From the IMG/VR virus record IMGVR_UViG_3300037264_000764, positions 1 through 28,842 of that record: a stretch of DNA of 28,842 bases, one strand, 5' to 3'. The notes under the pieces are model-generated. The model worked only from the letters and a program-made list of their open reading frames with translations, had not been told where the DNA came from and ran no database searches. The translations under genes were made by a program, and so were the position numbers. Origin of the DNA: a virus. Below are positions 2,051-8,776 of the stretch, one piece after another (the stretch's first letter is position 1; every line of letters begins with the position of its first letter).

Positions 2051-4666
2051 GTGCCTTACGAGCTGGTTACGAGCCAAGACCGGCTTGGCGAGGTAGCCAA
2101 CGCCGTAGATCGTGCCGAGGCCGTAGGCTTCGACATCGAGACGACCTCGTTACGTCCTTGGGACGGCGATATTCGGTTGTTCTCCGTCAAGACGGCAGAC
2201 CGGCACTTCGTGGTGGACCTGTTCAAGACAGGCCACCCCGAAGCTGTCGTGCGCTCGCTCACGGACCCGAAGTCCAAGACCGTCAAGGTCATCCAGAACG
2301 CCAAGTTCGAGCAGCGCTGGTTCCTGCACAAGTACGGGGCCGATGGCGAGCTATGGCCTGTCTTCGATCCGTTCCGAGCCAGCAACCTGATCTACAACGG
2401 TCGTGACCTGAAGCACGACCTGTTTGCGATTCAGGAGCGCGAGCTTCAAGTGAAGCCCGGCGATGACTTGGCTAAGTCCGGTTGGGGCGGCGAGCTGACT
2501 CCGAGACAGCTCCAGTATTCGGCGGACGACACCGAGTACATGCTGCCGCTGCGGGAGACGCTCAAGGCGTCGCTCACGAAGTACGGACTGAACCGGGTAG
2601 CGCTGATCGAGTTCGGCGCTGTGCTCCCTGAATCGGCCATCGAGAACAACGGGTTCTACTTGGACCGCGAGCGTTGGCTTGCGCTGTACGAGCAGAACAA
2701 GATCACAGCGCGGAAGTTGCGTCGCGAGTTGGAGGCGGAGCTGCCCCACCCGCGCGGGCAGATGACGTTGCCCGGAGTCGAAGACGGCGGCGGTTTCAAC
2801 CTGGGCTCCACACAGCAGCTCCAGAAGTCCCTCGCGCAGCTTGGTATCAACGTCACGAGCACCAGCCAGGACGTGCTCGGATTGCTGTTACCCAAGATAC
2901 GCAAGAAGGCGGTGCGCGAGCTTGTCGTCAAGCTGATCGAGTACAAGAAGGTCAAGAAGCTGTGTGAGTCCTTCGGGCCAGACTTCCTGGGCAACATCGA
3001 CCCCAAGACGGGGCGCATCCATTCGTCGTTCTATCCGTACACAGGTGCAGGACGGTACAGTTGCTCGGCTCCTTGGACCCCGGTTCTTACCTCTGTCGGG
3101 GTGAAGCCCCTGGAATATATTGTACCGGGAGATTTTGTCTGGACGCACAAGCAGCGTTGGCGTCGGGTACTGGCCTTTCTACCCCAGGGAAAGCGCGCTG
3201 TTTTCGATGTTAGGTTTAGCGACGGGCAGGTTTTGACTTGCACCGCAGACCACCGAGTTCTACTCTCCGGTGGCAAGTGGGCCACCATCGAGGAGATTCA
3301 GCGTGAGTATTTCCAGGGCGTGGGTCGGGGATCTGAACAACCAGGGACGTGTTCTGGAGATGTACCGTCAGCTAGACCTCCCGCGAGTGGTGGACATCGC
3401 TGCGCAACTAGACACGACGTTTCACAATGTTCAGGCGGTGATCCGTGCCCGCATGCCGGAAGCGGAACGGAAAGCCCTGGCGGCGCTGCGCTACTCGGCG
3501 TCGAAGCACGGTTCCAAGAATCCGATGTTCGGGAAGAAGGGGGAGTCGCATCACAACTGGAAGGGGGAGTGCGAGGACGGCTACGGCTACCTGACTTGCT
3601 TGTGGAACGGCGAACGGCACTTCGTTCACCGGGTCGTGGTGATGGAGGCGTTGGGTGTGACGACCTTGCCCGAGAGCATGGCGGTTCATCACATCGATCT
3701 GAACCCGAAGAACAACGATTTGAACAACCTCGCACTTCTCACTCACGCGGCCCACAAGGCCCTGCACTCTATGTTAGTGAAGGACAGCCTGTCCGTACAG
3801 TTGAAGCGATCTACCCTCGCGGAAGCCTTGAAGTCTATGACCTCACCGTAGAGGACGACGAGAGCTTCGAGACGTGCGGCATCTTCTCGCACAACTGCTC
3901 GCATCCAAACCTCCAGCACATACCTCGTCTAAAGACGTTCCGTGACTGCTTCCGCGCGAGTGACGACATGGTGCTCGGGGTGTGGGACTACAGCCAGATC
4001 GAGTTGCGCATTGCGGCAGATATCTCGGGCGATGCTCGAATGATCCGCGCGTATAGCGAAGGGCTAGACCTGCACATTTTGACGGCTGCGCTCTTGAACG
4101 AGATCGACATCACGGAAGTTACCAAGGCCATGCGCCAGCCCGCCAAGGCCGGCAACTTCGGGTTGTTGTACGGCATGGGCGCCGCGAAGCTATCTGCCTA
4201 CGCGCAGACCAACTACAACGTGGCGATGGACGAGGACGAGGCGCTGGAGTTCCGCATCAAGTTCTTCCAGGGGTACAACGGCTTGCAACGCTGGCACAGG
4301 CGCGTATTTAGCGAGGAGAACAAGAAGAAGGGCTACACGCGAACACTGAGCGGGCGTCTTCGTTACTTGCCGGTTGATACGCACAGCGAGTGGGCCAACA
4401 CTCCGGTGCAAGGAACCGGCGCAGACGGGCTCAAGGCAGCCTTGCGGCTGACCTACATGACGCTCAAAAAGTACGGTGCCCAGGCGCGCATGGTGAACAT
4501 GGTTCACGACGAGATCGTGGCGGAGGCCAAGGCTGGGGACGAGGAATTGCGCAAGCAGGTGGATTCGGATGTGAAGCAGTGTATGGTGGACGGCATGCAG
4601 CAGTTTCTGCCAACCGTCCCCGTGGTCGTCGAAGGTGGCTGGGGAGCCAGCTGGGCGGACAAGTGA
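2051..4666 (+). CDS. polA: Family-A DNA polymerase with 3'-5' exonuclease domain, interrupted by an intein
   Basis: This is the phage replicative DNA polymerase, Pol I type. It starts at GTG 2051 just after GGAGG at 2043-2047. The exonuclease domain has FDIETTSL (D28, E30), NAKFE (N83 to E87, with Glu where the family often has Asp) and Y156-x3-D160. The polymerase domain has motif A WDYSQIELR (D646), motif B RQPAKAGNFGLLYG (R695, K699, Y707) and motif C VHDEIV (H819, D820, E821). The 871-residue precursor holds a 278-residue intein (residues 338-615) inserted after GAGRYS in the conserved TGR-S-PNLQ segment. Splicing would give a 593-residue enzyme reading GRYS-CSHPNLQ, near the size of other phage family-A polymerases. 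No 5'-3' nuclease domain is present. Confidence 0.95.
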   Translation: MPYELVTSQDRLGEVANAVDRAEAVGFDIETTSLRPWDGDIRLFSVKTADRHFVVDLFKTGHPEAVVRSLTDPKSKTVKVIQNAKFEQRWFLHKYGADGELWPVFDPFRASNLIYNGRDLKHDLFAIQERELQVKPGDDLAKSGWGGELTPRQLQYSADDTEYMLPLRETLKASLTKYGLNRVALIEFGAVLPESAIENNGFYLDRERWLALYEQNKITARKLRRELEAELPHPRGQMTLPGVEDGGGFNLGSTQQLQKSLAQLGINVTSTSQDVLGLLLPKIRKKAVRELVVKLIEYKKVKKLCESFGPDFLGNIDPKTGRIHSSFYPYTGAGRYSCSAPWTPVLTSVGVKPLEYIVPGDFVWTHKQRWRRVLAFLPQGKRAVFDVRFSDGQVLTCTADHRVLLSGGKWATIEEIQREYFQGVGRGSEQPGTCSGDVPSARPPASGGHRCATRHDVSQCSGGDPCPHAGSGTESPGGAALLGVEARFQESDVREEGGVASQLEGGVRGRLRLPDLLVERRTALRSPGRGDGGVGCDDLAREHGGSSHRSEPEEQRFEQPRTSHSRGPQGPALYVSEGQPVRTVEAIYPRGSLEVYDLTVEDDESFETCGIFSHNCSHPNLQHIPRLKTFRDCFRASDDMVLGVWDYSQIELRIAADISGDARMIRAYSEGLDLHILTAALLNEIDITEVTKAMRQPAKAGNFGLLYGMGAAKLSAYAQTNYNVAMDEDEALEFRIKFFQGYNGLQRWHRRVFSEENKKKGYTRTLSGRLRYLPVDTHSEWANTPVQGTGADGLKAALRLTYMTLKKYGAQARMVNMVHDEIVAEAKAGDEELRKQVDSDVKQCMVDGMQQFLPTVPVVVEGGWGASWADK
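3291..3296 (+). promoter_or_regulatory. Internal ribosome binding site for nested HNH gene
   Basis: AGGAGA lies six bases upstream of GTG at 3303, in the +1 frame relative to the polymerase. It decides the start of the nested endonuclease: the upstream in-frame GTG at 3270 has no comparable site. Confidence 0.5.
3303..3851 (+). CDS. HNH homing endonuclease nested in the polymerase intein in an alternate frame
   Basis: The 182-residue product is read one base ahead of the polymerase frame, from GTG 3303 (RBS AGGAGA at 3291-3296) to TAG 3849-3851. Residues about 15-55 resemble a helix-turn-helix (MYRQLDLPRVVDIAAQL). Residues 70-80 (GSKNPMFGKKG) match the NUMOD3-type motif of homing endonucleases. 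Residues 106-155 carry the HNH nuclease motif, with H129/H130 in HHID, Asn residues in NPKNNDLNNL, and His in LTHAAHKALH. Such enzymes cut intein-less alleles to spread the element. The odd point is architecture: endonucleases in inteins are normally fused in frame, but this one is a separate overlapping gene. An alternative is a frameshifted intein-HNH fusion, or two compensating sequence errors. An alternative start is GTG 3270. Confidence 0.82.
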   Translation: MSISRAWVGDLNNQGRVLEMYRQLDLPRVVDIAAQLDTTFHNVQAVIRARMPEAERKALAALRYSASKHGSKNPMFGKKGESHHNWKGECEDGYGYLTCLWNGERHFVHRVVVMEALGVTTLPESMAVHHIDLNPKNNDLNNLALLTHAAHKALHSMLVKDSLSVQLKRSTLAEALKSMTSP

Positions 4667-4697: not shown

Positions 4698-5459
4698 ATG
4701 TCGGTACCCAACAACCGCGTGAAGCCCGTGAGTCGCGCTCCAGACAAGCACAAGCGGATCAAGTCGCTTGAGTGCTTCACTGAAGTTCACGAGATGGTGA
4801 TCACAGGGTGGGCGCTGGGGGACATCGCCAAGCATATTCAGCAGCTCAAAGGCGAGTCTGACGACATTACCGAGGACGCCCTGATCTTTTCGCTCGGGGA
4901 GTACCGCAAAGACTTGCCTCCCGGCGTGTTGGTTCAAAAGACGCTTCCCGCTGTATTCACGCAGGCCGTCACGCAGTTGAACGACGGGCTCGATGCGTTG
5001 GAGGAGATGGAGAAGCTCTACCGCATCCAGATGAAGCGCGTGAACATCGACCACGCGATGGAAGTTCAGATCGGCAAGCTCCTGCCTAACATGACGGCGG
5101 AGATCAGGATGGCAAGGGACATTCTGGAGTCCTACGCCGAGATGGAAATGGACTTGGGCTTGGTGGAGCGCAGGCTAGGTCGCGTAGATGTGGGCGCCGA
5201 GGAGCTGTCTCAGGCAGCCGCGCACTACGGCAAGGAGTCTGTCAAGAACGTGCTGGATAGCCCACAGTCGCGGCGCAAGCTGCTCGGTCTGGTCGAACGC
5301 TTCATGGTCGTGCAGCAAGAGCGCGAGCGCTTGAAGCGCGACGAGGATGCGTTTGCGGCAGCGGAGGACGAGGCTGCGGGATTGCCTGCTGAGACTGAAG
5401 TTCCGTCATCGGTTGAGGGAGCTGCGCTTACGGACAACGTACAGCTCGTTGAGCCATGA
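4698..5459 (+). CDS. Putative terminase small subunit (TerS)
   Basis: ATG at 4698 lies 11 bases after the 14-bp palindrome. The 253-residue protein has an N-terminal basic tail, then a helix-turn-helix-like segment at about residues 25-50 (TEVHEMVITGWALGDIAKHI), then long charged helices through residue 220 suited to oligomerisation (LDALEEMEKLYRIQMKRV and MVVQQERERLKRDED), and an acidic, disordered-looking tail. Its stop overlaps the TerL start (ATGA at 5456-5459). Small terminases typically have an N-terminal DNA-binding domain plus an oligomerising helical core and lie directly before TerL, which is why I favour this role. Sequence similarity alone does not establish it, so the name rests on position and architecture. 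Confidence 0.6.
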   Translation: MSVPNNRVKPVSRAPDKHKRIKSLECFTEVHEMVITGWALGDIAKHIQQLKGESDDITEDALIFSLGEYRKDLPPGVLVQKTLPAVFTQAVTQLNDGLDALEEMEKLYRIQMKRVNIDHAMEVQIGKLLPNMTAEIRMARDILESYAEMEMDLGLVERRLGRVDVGAEELSQAAAHYGKESVKNVLDSPQSRRKLLGLVERFMVVQQERERLKRDEDAFAAAEDEAAGLPAETEVPSSVEGAALTDNVQLVEP

Positions 5460-8400
5460 TCCGTTTTGGAGGCGGGCGTAGCTGGAGCGAGCGCACGCTC
5501 GATGAGTTGGAGCAGTTCTGCAAAGCGGACTATTCCAAGCTGACGCCTGAAGAACGTGAGGTGTTTCAGCTTCTTCTCGATGAGCTGGACGACTCCAAGA
5601 CTCCTGCGATAGCGGTGCCCGCTACACGTCTTGTGGATGCGCTGGGGTCGGCGGACTGGAAGACGACTCCCGTAGACATCGAGACGTTTGTGAAAGATCC
5701 GTACTTCCTCGGGGAGTCCTGCTCGGGGATGTACCCGAAGCTGCTCAACAAGATGATCGAGCTGTTTGGCGGCGAATACTATGAAGCGTTCCTCTGCGGA
5801 GCCATCGGCTACGGCAAGTGCAGCACTTTTGACACACGTTTGACCAACTTGGCCACGGGGGAACGCAGACGCATAGGGGAGCTTGTTGGTCAGACGCCCC
5901 TGGTGCCGTCGTTCGACGGTAAGAACATCGTGCCGGCACGGGCCTCCAAGATTTGGAAGTCGGGACGCAAGCAGTGCGCGAAGTTGGTGTTGGCCTCGGG
6001 GCAGTGGTTGGACGCTTCGCTGGATCATCCTGTGCTGGTCGCGTCCGGGGACTACGCCCCACTCGGTAGTCTACAGCCGGGGCAGTTTGTGGCACGCGCT
6101 CGGTTTGTACCGGCACCGTTGCAGCCTTTGGACATCTCGGATGCCGAGGTGCTAACGCTGGCGTACCTGATTGCAGATGGTAGCCTGACCCACAACGCGC
6201 ATTTGTACTGCAAAGGCGATCGTAGGTTGGTTGACGACTTCCGTGTGCATGCCTGTCAGTTACCGGCGTTTCGTGAGTTCGGGGTAGAGAACTTCAAGCA
6301 AGGCGCTTGGTACGTTTCGTTTCTAGGTTTGGACGCTTGGGCAGCGTCGTGGGGGATTCGGTGCCGGTCGAAAGAGAAACGGGTGCCGCCGCGACTGTTT
6401 GGGCTGAGAGATCGTCAACTGGCCCTGTTCCTGAACAGAGTGTTCACGGACGGATCAGTGTATGTGAACAAGACTCCGCGACGTATCGAGCTGACGTTGG
6501 CCAGTGAGGGGTTGATAGACGACGTACAGGAACTGCTACAGCGGTTCGGAATCTGCGTGCGTAAGTATTACACGCCTAAGAGCGCGGTGCGTGGGGAGAA
6601 GAAACACGCTGCGTGGACTATCTGTATTGCAGACGCGCCGTCCCTTCTTCTGTTTCTAGCCGCCGTAGGTCCGATCTTCGGCAAGGAAGCGGCTTGTGAA
6701 ACGCTGCTGGAGTACGCCCAGGAGATCAAAGCAAACACTAACTGGGATGTGGTTCCGGTCGGGTATGAAGAACTGAAGGAGATTCGCAAAGAGACGGGTC
6801 CGCACAACAAGCACTGGTGGGCCAAGCACGGGCTTGTGCAACGCGACTCGTACATGAGCCGAGACAAGTTTCAGCGCTTGTGTGCAGCAGTGAACTACAC
6901 GGGTCGGTATCGTTGGTACGCGGAAGCGGAACTCGTTTGGGAGAAGGTTGAGTCGGTAACACCCACAGGCATGCAGGACGTGTACGATCTTACTGTCCCT
7001 GGCACGCACAACGCGGTGGCGAACGGGATAGTGATCCACAACACGTTCTTCGCCAGCACGGGCCTGTGTCGCGTGCTCTACGAGCTGTCGTGCATGAAGA
7101 ACCCGCAGAAGTCTTTTGGACTGTCTGCTGACTCCACGATCGCCATCACGTGCATGTCTGTGTCTGAGGCCCTGGCCATTCGTGTTGCGTTCGACAACAT
7201 CGCGGCGAAGGTCAAGCTATCGCCGTACTTCAACAAGCAGTTTCAGTTCCGCGCAACCAAGAAAGAGCTACGTTTCCCATCAGCGATCTGGGTCGCAGCG
7301 CGCGCGGCCACGGACTCTGGTGCTCTCGGTCTGAACACATTCGCGGCGTTCATCGACGAAGCCAACTTCTACGGTCGGTACTACGAGCAGAGTTCCGTGG
7401 GGCGGGGCGGAGCCCCTGGGGGGCGTGTCGGAGCCCCTGTGGACATGGCGGAGCGTGTCTACGACATCCTGCGTCGTCGTATCAAGTCGCGTTTTGATCG
7501 TGGTGGCAAACTACCGGGCATCTTGTTCGTGGGTTCGTCCAAGACTGCGCGAGGCGACTTCACGGAACGCAAGATTCTGGAGTACGCCAAAGACCCTCAC
7601 GTATTCGTGATGGATTACAGCAACTGGGATGTCAAACCCGACATCTTTTTCGACTCCAAGCGCTTCTGGGTATTGGTCGGCAACGAAGCGGTGCCTTCAC
7701 GCATCTTGCTGGAGGGGGAGGAGAAGGAGTTTCAAGCTTCACTCCCTGAGAACACGATCCTGATCGACGTTCCAGAGGACTTCAAAGCGGACTTCGAGTC
7801 GGACATCGAAGGCAGTATCCGCGACCTAGCGGGGCTCAGCACCGTATCGATCAACCCGTTCATTCAACGGCGAGAGAAGATCCGTGAGGCGATCGATCCT
7901 TCTCGTTCACATCCGTTTACGACGATGTTGTTGGACCCGTCGCGTCCAGGCAAGTTTCGTTGGGACATCATGGTAGCCCCGCGCATGGAGCGGTTGTCGG
8001 GGACACACGAGCAGCTCGTACAACGACCGCTATTGAACCCCTTGGCCTTTCGGTACGTGCATCTCGACTTGTCGTTGCGCGGAGACGCTACGGGGTTCTG
8101 CATGGCGCACATTGGCGGTTGGAAGGATGTGCCCAGGCGGGCGGTGGACGGCCGGCAGTTCTTGGAACGGGCTCCGATCTACATCATCGACCTGATGTTG
8201 AAGATCGTTCCTCCTGCTGGCGGTGAGATCATACTCGCAGATGTACGGCATATCGTGTACGATCTTACAGCGCACGGGTACTCTATCCGGCGTGTGACGT
8301 TAGATAGCTGGCAGTCGGCGGACAGCATCCAGCAGTTCAAGAGCCAGGGGTACAGCGCCGAGCTACTGTCGCTGGACATCGCGCCCGAGCCTTACGATTC

Positions 8401-8776
8401 GTTCAAGACCGCGCTCTACGAGGGGCGCGTCCGGTACTACGAGTACGAGCCGGCCATCCAGCAGTTGGAGTTGCTGCAAGAAGATCGTAGGTCCAAGAAG
8501 CGCAAGATTGATCACCCGCCGAAGGGCGAGAAGGACGTGTCGGACGCGATGGCTGGCGTGTGTTTCTCGCTCCAGAAGTACATGGTGTCTGAGCCGTTGC
8601 CGATGCTGACCACGCAGCCTTCGGTCGTTGATCCCTGGATGGACGCGGTGCGGCCTGGCGTTCCTGGGATTCAGAGCCCTTCGGGTGCCGTTTCGACCAT
8701 GGAAGGCGTTACGCTGCCGAAGGGTTCTGGCATACTGCCTCCGTTCCTCGGCGGCGGCTTCGGCTCCGGTGACTAG
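5456..8776 (+). CDS. Terminase large subunit (TerL), interrupted by a LAGLIDADG intein
   Basis: This is the packaging motor ATPase and headful/cos nuclease. The 1106-residue precursor holds a 408-residue intein (residues 122-529). Removing it rebuilds Walker A as GAIGYGKT in a 698-residue protein. Walker B is FAAFIDEANF (D634, E635), and a coupling motif is seen in FVGSSKTARGD. The nuclease domain has HLDLSLRGDATGF, a central LADVRHIVYDL strand, and the terminal acidic motif in KGEKDVSDAMAG. The start ATG 5456 overlaps the previous stop, implying coupling. A Gly/Pro-rich loop after Walker B (about residues 646-661) contains a short tandem repeat. The C-terminal 50 residues are Pro/Gly-rich and probably flexible. 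Identification as TerL is secure. Confidence 0.95.
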   Translation: MIRFGGGRSWSERTLDELEQFCKADYSKLTPEEREVFQLLLDELDDSKTPAIAVPATRLVDALGSADWKTTPVDIETFVKDPYFLGESCSGMYPKLLNKMIELFGGEYYEAFLCGAIGYGKCSTFDTRLTNLATGERRRIGELVGQTPLVPSFDGKNIVPARASKIWKSGRKQCAKLVLASGQWLDASLDHPVLVASGDYAPLGSLQPGQFVARARFVPAPLQPLDISDAEVLTLAYLIADGSLTHNAHLYCKGDRRLVDDFRVHACQLPAFREFGVENFKQGAWYVSFLGLDAWAASWGIRCRSKEKRVPPRLFGLRDRQLALFLNRVFTDGSVYVNKTPRRIELTLASEGLIDDVQELLQRFGICVRKYYTPKSAVRGEKKHAAWTICIADAPSLLLFLAAVGPIFGKEAACETLLEYAQEIKANTNWDVVPVGYEELKEIRKETGPHNKHWWAKHGLVQRDSYMSRDKFQRLCAAVNYTGRYRWYAEAELVWEKVESVTPTGMQDVYDLTVPGTHNAVANGIVIHNTFFASTGLCRVLYELSCMKNPQKSFGLSADSTIAITCMSVSEALAIRVAFDNIAAKVKLSPYFNKQFQFRATKKELRFPSAIWVAARAATDSGALGLNTFAAFIDEANFYGRYYEQSSVGRGGAPGGRVGAPVDMAERVYDILRRRIKSRFDRGGKLPGILFVGSSKTARGDFTERKILEYAKDPHVFVMDYSNWDVKPDIFFDSKRFWVLVGNEAVPSRILLEGEEKEFQASLPENTILIDVPEDFKADFESDIEGSIRDLAGLSTVSINPFIQRREKIREAIDPSRSHPFTTMLLDPSRPGKFRWDIMVAPRMERLSGTHEQLVQRPLLNPLAFRYVHLDLSLRGDATGFCMAHIGGWKDVPRRAVDGRQFLERAPIYIIDLMLKIVPPAGGEIILADVRHIVYDLTAHGYSIRRVTLDSWQSADSIQQFKSQGYSAELLSLDIAPEPYDSFKTALYEGRVRYYEYEPAIQQLELLQEDRRSKKRKIDHPPKGEKDVSDAMAGVCFSLQKYMVSEPLPMLTTQPSVVDPWMDAVRPGVPGIQSPSGAVSTMEGVTLPKGSGILPPFLGGGFGSGD
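5819..7042 (+). other. LAGLIDADG intein inside the TerL Walker A motif
   Basis: The element starts with Cys (residue 122) right after GAIGYGK and ends with GIVIHN before Thr530, so it splits Lys from Thr of the P-loop. Block A is CSTFDTRLTNL. Block B is around LDASLDHPVLV, with Ser at the usual Thr position of T-x-x-H. Block C is LAYLIADGS (residues 235-243), block E is LFLNRVFTDGS (324-334), each with the metal-binding Asp of a LAGLIDADG nuclease. Block F is VYDLTVPGTHNAV. Both nuclease motifs keep their acidic residue, so the homing endonuclease looks intact. Until it splices, TerL cannot bind ATP properly. Confidence 0.93.
7408..7439 (+). repeat. Short in-frame direct repeat in TerL
   Basis: CGGAGCCCCTG occurs at 7408-7418 and again at 7429-7439, exactly 21 bases (seven codons) apart, encoding GRGGAPG and GRVGAPV. 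It lies in the loop after Walker B where TerL proteins are variable, and looks like a local tandem duplication. Confidence 0.6.

Follow-up and report, generated by a model that had tools for sequence, protein, structure and literature searches.

The window analysed here, a stretch of 28,842 nucleotides of viral DNA (IMG/VR record IMGVR_UViG_3300037264_000764, positions 1 to 28,842), carries a polA gene interrupted by an intein and, nested within that intein, an HNH endonuclease gene in the +1 reading frame. This arrangement is real, widespread and selected in both frames. In the usual description, an intein and its endonuclease form a single polypeptide, the latter being one of its domains. 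We consider it very probable that the element is a mobile class-1 PolA intein with its homing endonuclease encoded by an overlapping gene of its own in the +1 frame, internal initiation giving the free HNH protein and the full frame giving the splicing precursor; splicing, internal initiation, DNA cleavage and homing are steps that we infer within this explanation. Ribosomes coming from the polymerase start would read through the whole frame and produce a precursor in which the splicing halves flank a disordered linker of about 155 residues, and the intein would then splice itself out to leave a working polymerase. Ribosomes starting at the internal GTG or ATG behind a Shine-Dalgarno sequence would yield a free-standing HTH-HNH endonuclease. 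This enzyme would act on intein-free polA, cutting or nicking it within the stretch that codes for GRxS-xxx-PNLQ(N/Q)IP; intein and endonuclease would then be copied in together when the damage is repaired off an intein-bearing copy. The features of the locus are listed in Table 1.

Table 1. Coordinates of the polymerase gene, the intein, the nested HNH gene and the presumed homing site in the window
Feature	Coordinates	Strand	Remarks
PolA-family DNA polymerase precursor ORF (3'-5' exonuclease + family A polymerase)	2051..4666	+	open through intein
Left half of presumed homing site (PYTGAGRYS)	3035..3061	+	intein-free alleles L041-L043
Intein, 278 aa, between GRYS and CSHPNLQHIP of PolA	3062..3895	+	motifs; Pfam Intein_splicing
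Intein N-terminal splicing half	3062..3301	+	Cys1 (3062-3064), block B TADH (3242-3253); AF2 pLDDT, Hint matches
Shine-Dalgarno-like AGGAGA, 6 nt upstream of HNH GTG	3291..3296	+	duplex dG -8.9
Out-of-frame (+1) HNH homing endonuclease gene, 182 aa, GTG start	3303..3851	+	HNH_3; start aligned 18/18
Polymerase-frame linker, intein residues 86-240	3317..3781	+	pLDDT <50, composition, no stops
HNH_3 catalytic core, HNH residues 107-151	3621..3755	+	E 2.9e-11; fold match I-HmuI 1u3e
Intein C-terminal splicing half	3791..3895	+	block F D260 (3839-3841), His-Asn (3890-3895); TIGR01443
Stretch under double constraint, coding both for block F of the intein (SLEVYDLTV) and for the end of the HNH (..ALKSMTS)	3824..3850	+	
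Right half of presumed homing site (CSHPNLQHIPRLK)	3896..3934	+	related HNHs' group I introns inside this motif

The polymerase gene encodes a precursor of 871 amino acids with Pfam matches to DNA_pol_A (2.5e-66) and exo1 (4.6e-14). Its insertion of 834 bases carries class-1 intein motifs at both ends, namely Cys1, TADH as the TxxH motif, SLEVYDLTV containing the VYD of block F, and FSHN followed by C. The initial annotation had described a polymerase frame that stays open through the intein with splicing blocks at its ends, and all of its coordinates hold. The C-terminal splicing half is matched by TIGR01443 (intein_Cterm) with an E-value of 1.2e-4. The linker between the two halves is the HNH gene translated in the other frame; it is rich in G, S, R, A and E and is predicted to be disordered. 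The host gene is a single continuous ORF and not the two ORFs of a fractured gene. It should be noted that the window contains a further intein in a large ORF (5456-8776) that lies upstream of a portal-like gene and is probably the terminase; this intein is of the canonical type, with LAGLIDADG in frame, and offers a contrast within the same genome.

Relatives were gathered by four rounds of HNH searches of IMG/VR contigs and, once near-duplicates had been removed, gave 18 lineages including the window (the others being L001, L003, L004/L005, L010, L012, L013/L015, L014, L016, L019, L026, L027, L031, L033, L035, L036, L037 and L038). The 17 lineages besides the window share its layout, phase and insertion site, with pairwise HNH identities of at most 69%. 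The polymerase frame, whose breakage in relatives the initial annotation had considered, is open in all 18, and the HNH gene lies in the same +1 phase throughout, starting at intein residue 70-87 and ending 7-27 residues short of the intein end. Insertion takes place between GRxS and xxxPNLQ, at a position that varies within one codon either way. Pfam Intein_splicing is matched by each of the 18 lineages at E<=0.01, the window itself scoring under the curated cut-off. Residues C1, H64, D260, H277 and N278 of the inteins are invariant, T61 is nearly invariant and the +1 residue is Cys or Ser in every case; position 1, the TxxH block B, the C-terminal His-Asn and the +1 residue thus assign the inteins of the 18 lineages to class 1. 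The endonuclease that a canonical intein carries in frame between blocks B and F is absent from this position, the HNH being found in the +1 frame instead.

Compared with eight intron-borne homologues, the 18 nested HNHs form one branch of the HNH tree (support 100/99). Since all 18 fall on this branch, the layout at the GRxS/PNLQ site was probably set up once and then inherited or spread, rather than assembled in 18 events. Scans of genome contigs found no relatives. When 80 polA loci were searched at this site for an intein lacking the endonuclease or carrying it in frame, only uninterrupted sites came up besides the already known L003 contig. The polymerases of L001, L014 and L015 contain additional inteins, one of a similar type before TPxQG, and the L015 polA gene appears to hold three inteins.

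The +1-frame ORF and its HNH_3 domain were confirmed in the window, as was the AGGAGA sequence six bases before the GTG, and an HNH_3 domain was found in the HNH proteins of all 18 lineages. The domain order HTH-NUMOD3-like-HNH first proposed for this protein stands for the HNH part; the NUMOD3-like part is suggestive (E=0.074, below the cut-off) and the HTH is visible only as predicted helices. A start codon (ATG, GTG or TTG) occupies the same alignment column in the 18 HNH genes, and Shine-Dalgarno pairing exceeds the same-phase background with a combined P of 3e-7 over the 18 lineages, L031 and L033 having a weak pairing or none. In six lineages the HNH frame is closed by a stop 0-3 codons upstream of the start, directly before it in L015 and 1-3 codons before it in L036, L038, L012, L031 and L037, which leaves little room for a frameshifted fusion. 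One HNH gene (L004, 2207-2752) reads HRID in its HNH motif and its relative L005, about 99% identical, reads HHID; the former is possibly an inactivated copy.

Structure models were computed for both products. With the 18-row alignment, AlphaFold (AF2) modelled the intein confidently at its two ends, where the pLDDT was about 93-97 (mean about 95) over residues 1-80 and about 80-96 over residues 241-278, and gave values below 50 over residues 86-240, the stretch overlapping the HNH gene. The best PDB matches of the Hint halves were the Npu DnaE, gp41-1 and Mtu RecA inteins, with a Foldseek probability of 1.0. The two terminal halves are thus confidently predicted to form a Hint fold and the linker between them to be disordered. 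The HNH model is folded from residue 1, with confident N-terminal helices and a confident HNH core and lower confidence around residues 70-90; its low-confidence tail is encoded by the bases that also specify intein block F. Its best fold match is I-HmuI (1u3e; probability 0.95, E 0.075), and the motif together with a DNA-binding extension places the protein in the HNH homing endonuclease class (HNH_3, I-HmuI-like). The start sites, the Shine-Dalgarno evidence and the models all agree with the earlier proposal of an independently initiated HNH gene inside an intein that looks competent for splicing.

A stop arises in the polymerase frame whenever an HNH codon ending in T is followed by a codon beginning with AA, AG or GA. 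When synonymous codons were shuffled within each gene, 112 such stops were expected over the 18 lineages and none was observed, whereas the third frame contained 234 stops for 211 expected in the same shuffling. T at the third position of HNH codons was found at 0 of 659 at-risk sites compared to 488 of 1867 elsewhere (Fisher P=2.5e-73). For the window alone, shuffled HNH codons gave an expectation of 5.0 polymerase-frame stops, and only 0.13% of the shuffles had none. By contrast, the same codon context was not avoided in the polymerase exteins used as a control (23.2% vs 23.1%), and eight intron-borne HNH homologues contained 7-26 stops in the equivalent frame. Given this stop avoidance and the two controls, the simplest reading is that the polymerase frame is translated through the HNH region. 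The openness is not a chance product of high GC content, a candidate ruled out by the shuffles, by members with a GC content down to 43%, and by the extein and intron-HNH controls.

The HNH frame is under protein-level selection, as shown by pairwise differences of 0.44/0.36/0.59 over its three codon positions in the 18 lineages. These values and the stop avoidance bear out, frame by frame, the initial claim that both frames are kept open. In the polymerase-frame linker, amino-acid identity was 0.253 vs 0.230 in shuffles; we do not claim additional amino-acid constraint on it, as this excess is small and could be explained by shared ancestry. The Streptococcus phages Javan113 and Javan255, which belong to the second-site family described below, differ at 37 positions distributed 7/4/26 over the HNH codon positions, of which 26 are silent in the HNH and 31 alter the polymerase-frame linker. 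The linker appears to be selected for openness and not for sequence.

Other explanations of the overlap were weighed. Sequencing or assembly errors, or recent frameshift mutations, could mask an ordinary in-frame fusion of intein and HNH, since intein HNHs are otherwise in frame, as in the combination of HintN with HNH_3 in the dCTP deaminase of cyanophage CL131 (PMC6293099). The phase is identical in 18 lineages, which rules out an indel artefact; the long frame is free of stops, and comparable arrangements occur in complete isolate genomes, so that we give this explanation practically no credit. A frameshifted fusion had been the alternative offered by the initial annotation; a frameshift of a fused HNH, whether of sequencing or evolutionary origin, is rejected. 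Programmed frameshifting, near 3300 and perhaps also near 3790, might also join the HNH to the intein in one protein, in place of internal initiation. Such a mechanism would fit the observation that the point of contact between the two frames hardly moves from lineage to lineage; however, the conserved start column, the Shine-Dalgarno signal and the stops lying just ahead of the start make it quite improbable.

The insert could instead be removed as RNA, that is, be a group I intron carrying an HNH gene in which the open host frame is incidental. Related HNHs do occupy group I introns in the same motif, and a similar element of Sodalis phage SO-1 has already been given this label. An intron, however, has no need of the open host frame and strong stop avoidance seen in 18 of 18 lineages, its relatives in introns contain stops in that frame, and the intein catalytic residues are conserved with a predicted Hint fold, all of which makes this reading very hard to sustain. 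An Rfam search gave no group I intron match, and Rfam at its gathering threshold also misses proven introns; the intron reading is rejected on host-frame stop avoidance and not on Rfam. Finally, the intein may be real and its HNH no longer a homing enzyme, the overlap being a relic or the nuclease serving phage competition. The altered HNH motif of L004 would agree with this, and intron endonucleases can act in viral interference (PMC11620839). Protein-level selection on the HNH frame, the common travel of HNH and intein, and the existence of intein-free relatives at the same site argue against it, and we regard it as unlikely. The preferred explanation remains a mobile intein with a separate, overlapping homing endonuclease gene.

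Regarding mobility, HNH identity over the 18 lineages is correlated by rank with that of the splicing domain (0.70) far more than with that of the extein (0.26), and the HNHs of L012 and L015 are 58% identical when their exteins are only 23% identical. As judged by such identity comparisons, in which the proteins may differ in evolutionary rate, the HNH and the splicing domain are shown to move together between divergent polymerases. Three close polymerase relatives (L041-L043) are intein-free and uninterrupted at the same site. HNH homologues of isolated phages are found in introns or interrupted polA genes of Providencia PS3, phiL7, Dickeya BF25/12, Pf-WMP3 and Dor1, and they sit after SSSxP or PNL of the same PolA motif, a few codons from the intein site. 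One such enzyme, I-PfoP3I, introduces a nick into intronless polA, 4 nt upstream of the site of its own intron (PMC3428280). It is therefore likely that the window HNH homes at this polA site. From the horizontal spread and the coincidence of target sites, we infer that the HNH would mobilise the intein in trans. The initial annotation had proposed that a free-standing HNH gene invaded a mini-intein. The out-of-frame nesting stands, and the notion of an arbitrary free-standing invader is refined, because the presence of HNH homologues in polA group I introns at the same motif suggests that the invader probably was an HNH already targeting that polA site.

The nearest precedent is the ShiLan insertion (Arsenault, Gosselin and Gogarten 2025, PMC11855218), an out-of-frame HNH with an open host frame. 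Both it and the window element have the HNH in the other frame, a GTG start near the beginning of the insertion and a distribution suggesting homing (PMC11855218). The ShiLan insertion, however, lacks the splicing motifs and the fold of an intein, has no Shine-Dalgarno sequence that could be detected, and is thought to be retained in a methylase, a non-essential gene (PMC11855218), whereas the window HNH is enclosed by a Hint intein with the complete set of splicing motifs and resides in a polymerase gene. HNHs of the I-PfoP3I / I-TslI type (PMC3428280) are homologous to the window HNH and lie in the same PolA motif; among PHROGs, phrog_7545 is the top match of the window HNH and also of the intron HNH tested. 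They differ in residing in RNA-splicing introns without an open host frame, in forming a separate HNH branch and in being inserted a few codons downstream of where the intein lies. Canonical large inteins with in-frame LAGLIDADG or HNH domains, such as that of the CL131 dCTP deaminase (PMC6293099) and the one at 5456-8776 of the window, have the splicing motifs and Hint fold in common with the PolA intein, but in them the endonuclease forms part of the intein polypeptide and has no overlapping gene of its own. A search among openly licensed papers found none that describes a true intein with its endonuclease out of frame. Dassa and colleagues are said to have described, in 2009, fractured genes with split inteins and a free-standing endonuclease gene between the intein halves. 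There the host gene is in two pieces and splicing occurs in trans, whereas in the window one continuous frame runs through the endonuclease gene.

In the window, one stretch of DNA codes for the predicted splicing precursor of the polymerase and, in another frame, for the presumed mobiliser, with selection measurable on both frames. The arrangement illustrates a way for a splicing element to acquire an endonuclease gene without protein fusion, and points to endonucleases common to introns and inteins at one DNA target.

A comparable organisation was observed at a second PolA site, reached by following the further out-of-frame HNH of the L033 polymerase described below. In isolated phages, inteins inserted immediately before CGYGG, CGFGG or CELGLGYGG carry an HNH out of frame, in +1 in Gardnerella phage AB1 and Streptococcus phages Javan113 and Javan255, and in -1 in the Dhillonviruses (Sodalis SO-1, EP23, Pubbukkers) and in EBPR siphovirus 2. 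The host frame is open in all of them, as in the window, from which they differ in PolA site, HNH family and the use of either frame. AB1, Javan113, Javan255, SO-1, Pubbukkers and EBPR siphovirus 2 have 0 stops for 4-15 expected, and such arrangements are present in complete isolate genomes, e.g. MW387018 and NC_013600. The individual second-site inteins were not recognised in a Pfam search; profile comparison matched their N-terminal halves to the first family with a probability of 96.5%. Because phases and HNH families differ, separate HNH captures are suggested, and a frame switch is possible between the +1 and -1 second-site members, whose HNHs are homologous. It seems likely to us that out-of-frame endonuclease genes in inteins form a general, recurrently evolved class, with at least two HNH families, two PolA sites, +1 and -1 frames and cultivated phages included, in which HNHs targeting one polA site would be packaged in group I introns and, frame-entangled, in inteins. 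Arrangements of this kind also appear to exist in cultivated E. coli phages, which opens the idea to bench work.

Annotation conceals such genes, which are called an intron or a plain polymerase, or are overlooked. The second-site elements are annotated variously as an intron, an intein-containing polymerase or a plain polymerase. The polymerase of Sodalis phage SO-1 (L144, 849-4037 and 2333-3091) is annotated with a 'type I self-splicing intron'; judged by its sequence, this element resembles an intein that holds an HNH gene out of frame, in -1. Within the first family, the polymerase of L033 contains a further intein (5155-6534) with an unrelated HNH ORF (5264-6481; phrog_374, E 1.3e-18) out of frame in +1, both frames being open over about 405 codons at 43% GC, with 0 stops vs 22 expected. 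Another intein of the same L033 polymerase resembles the in-frame LAGLIDADG type.
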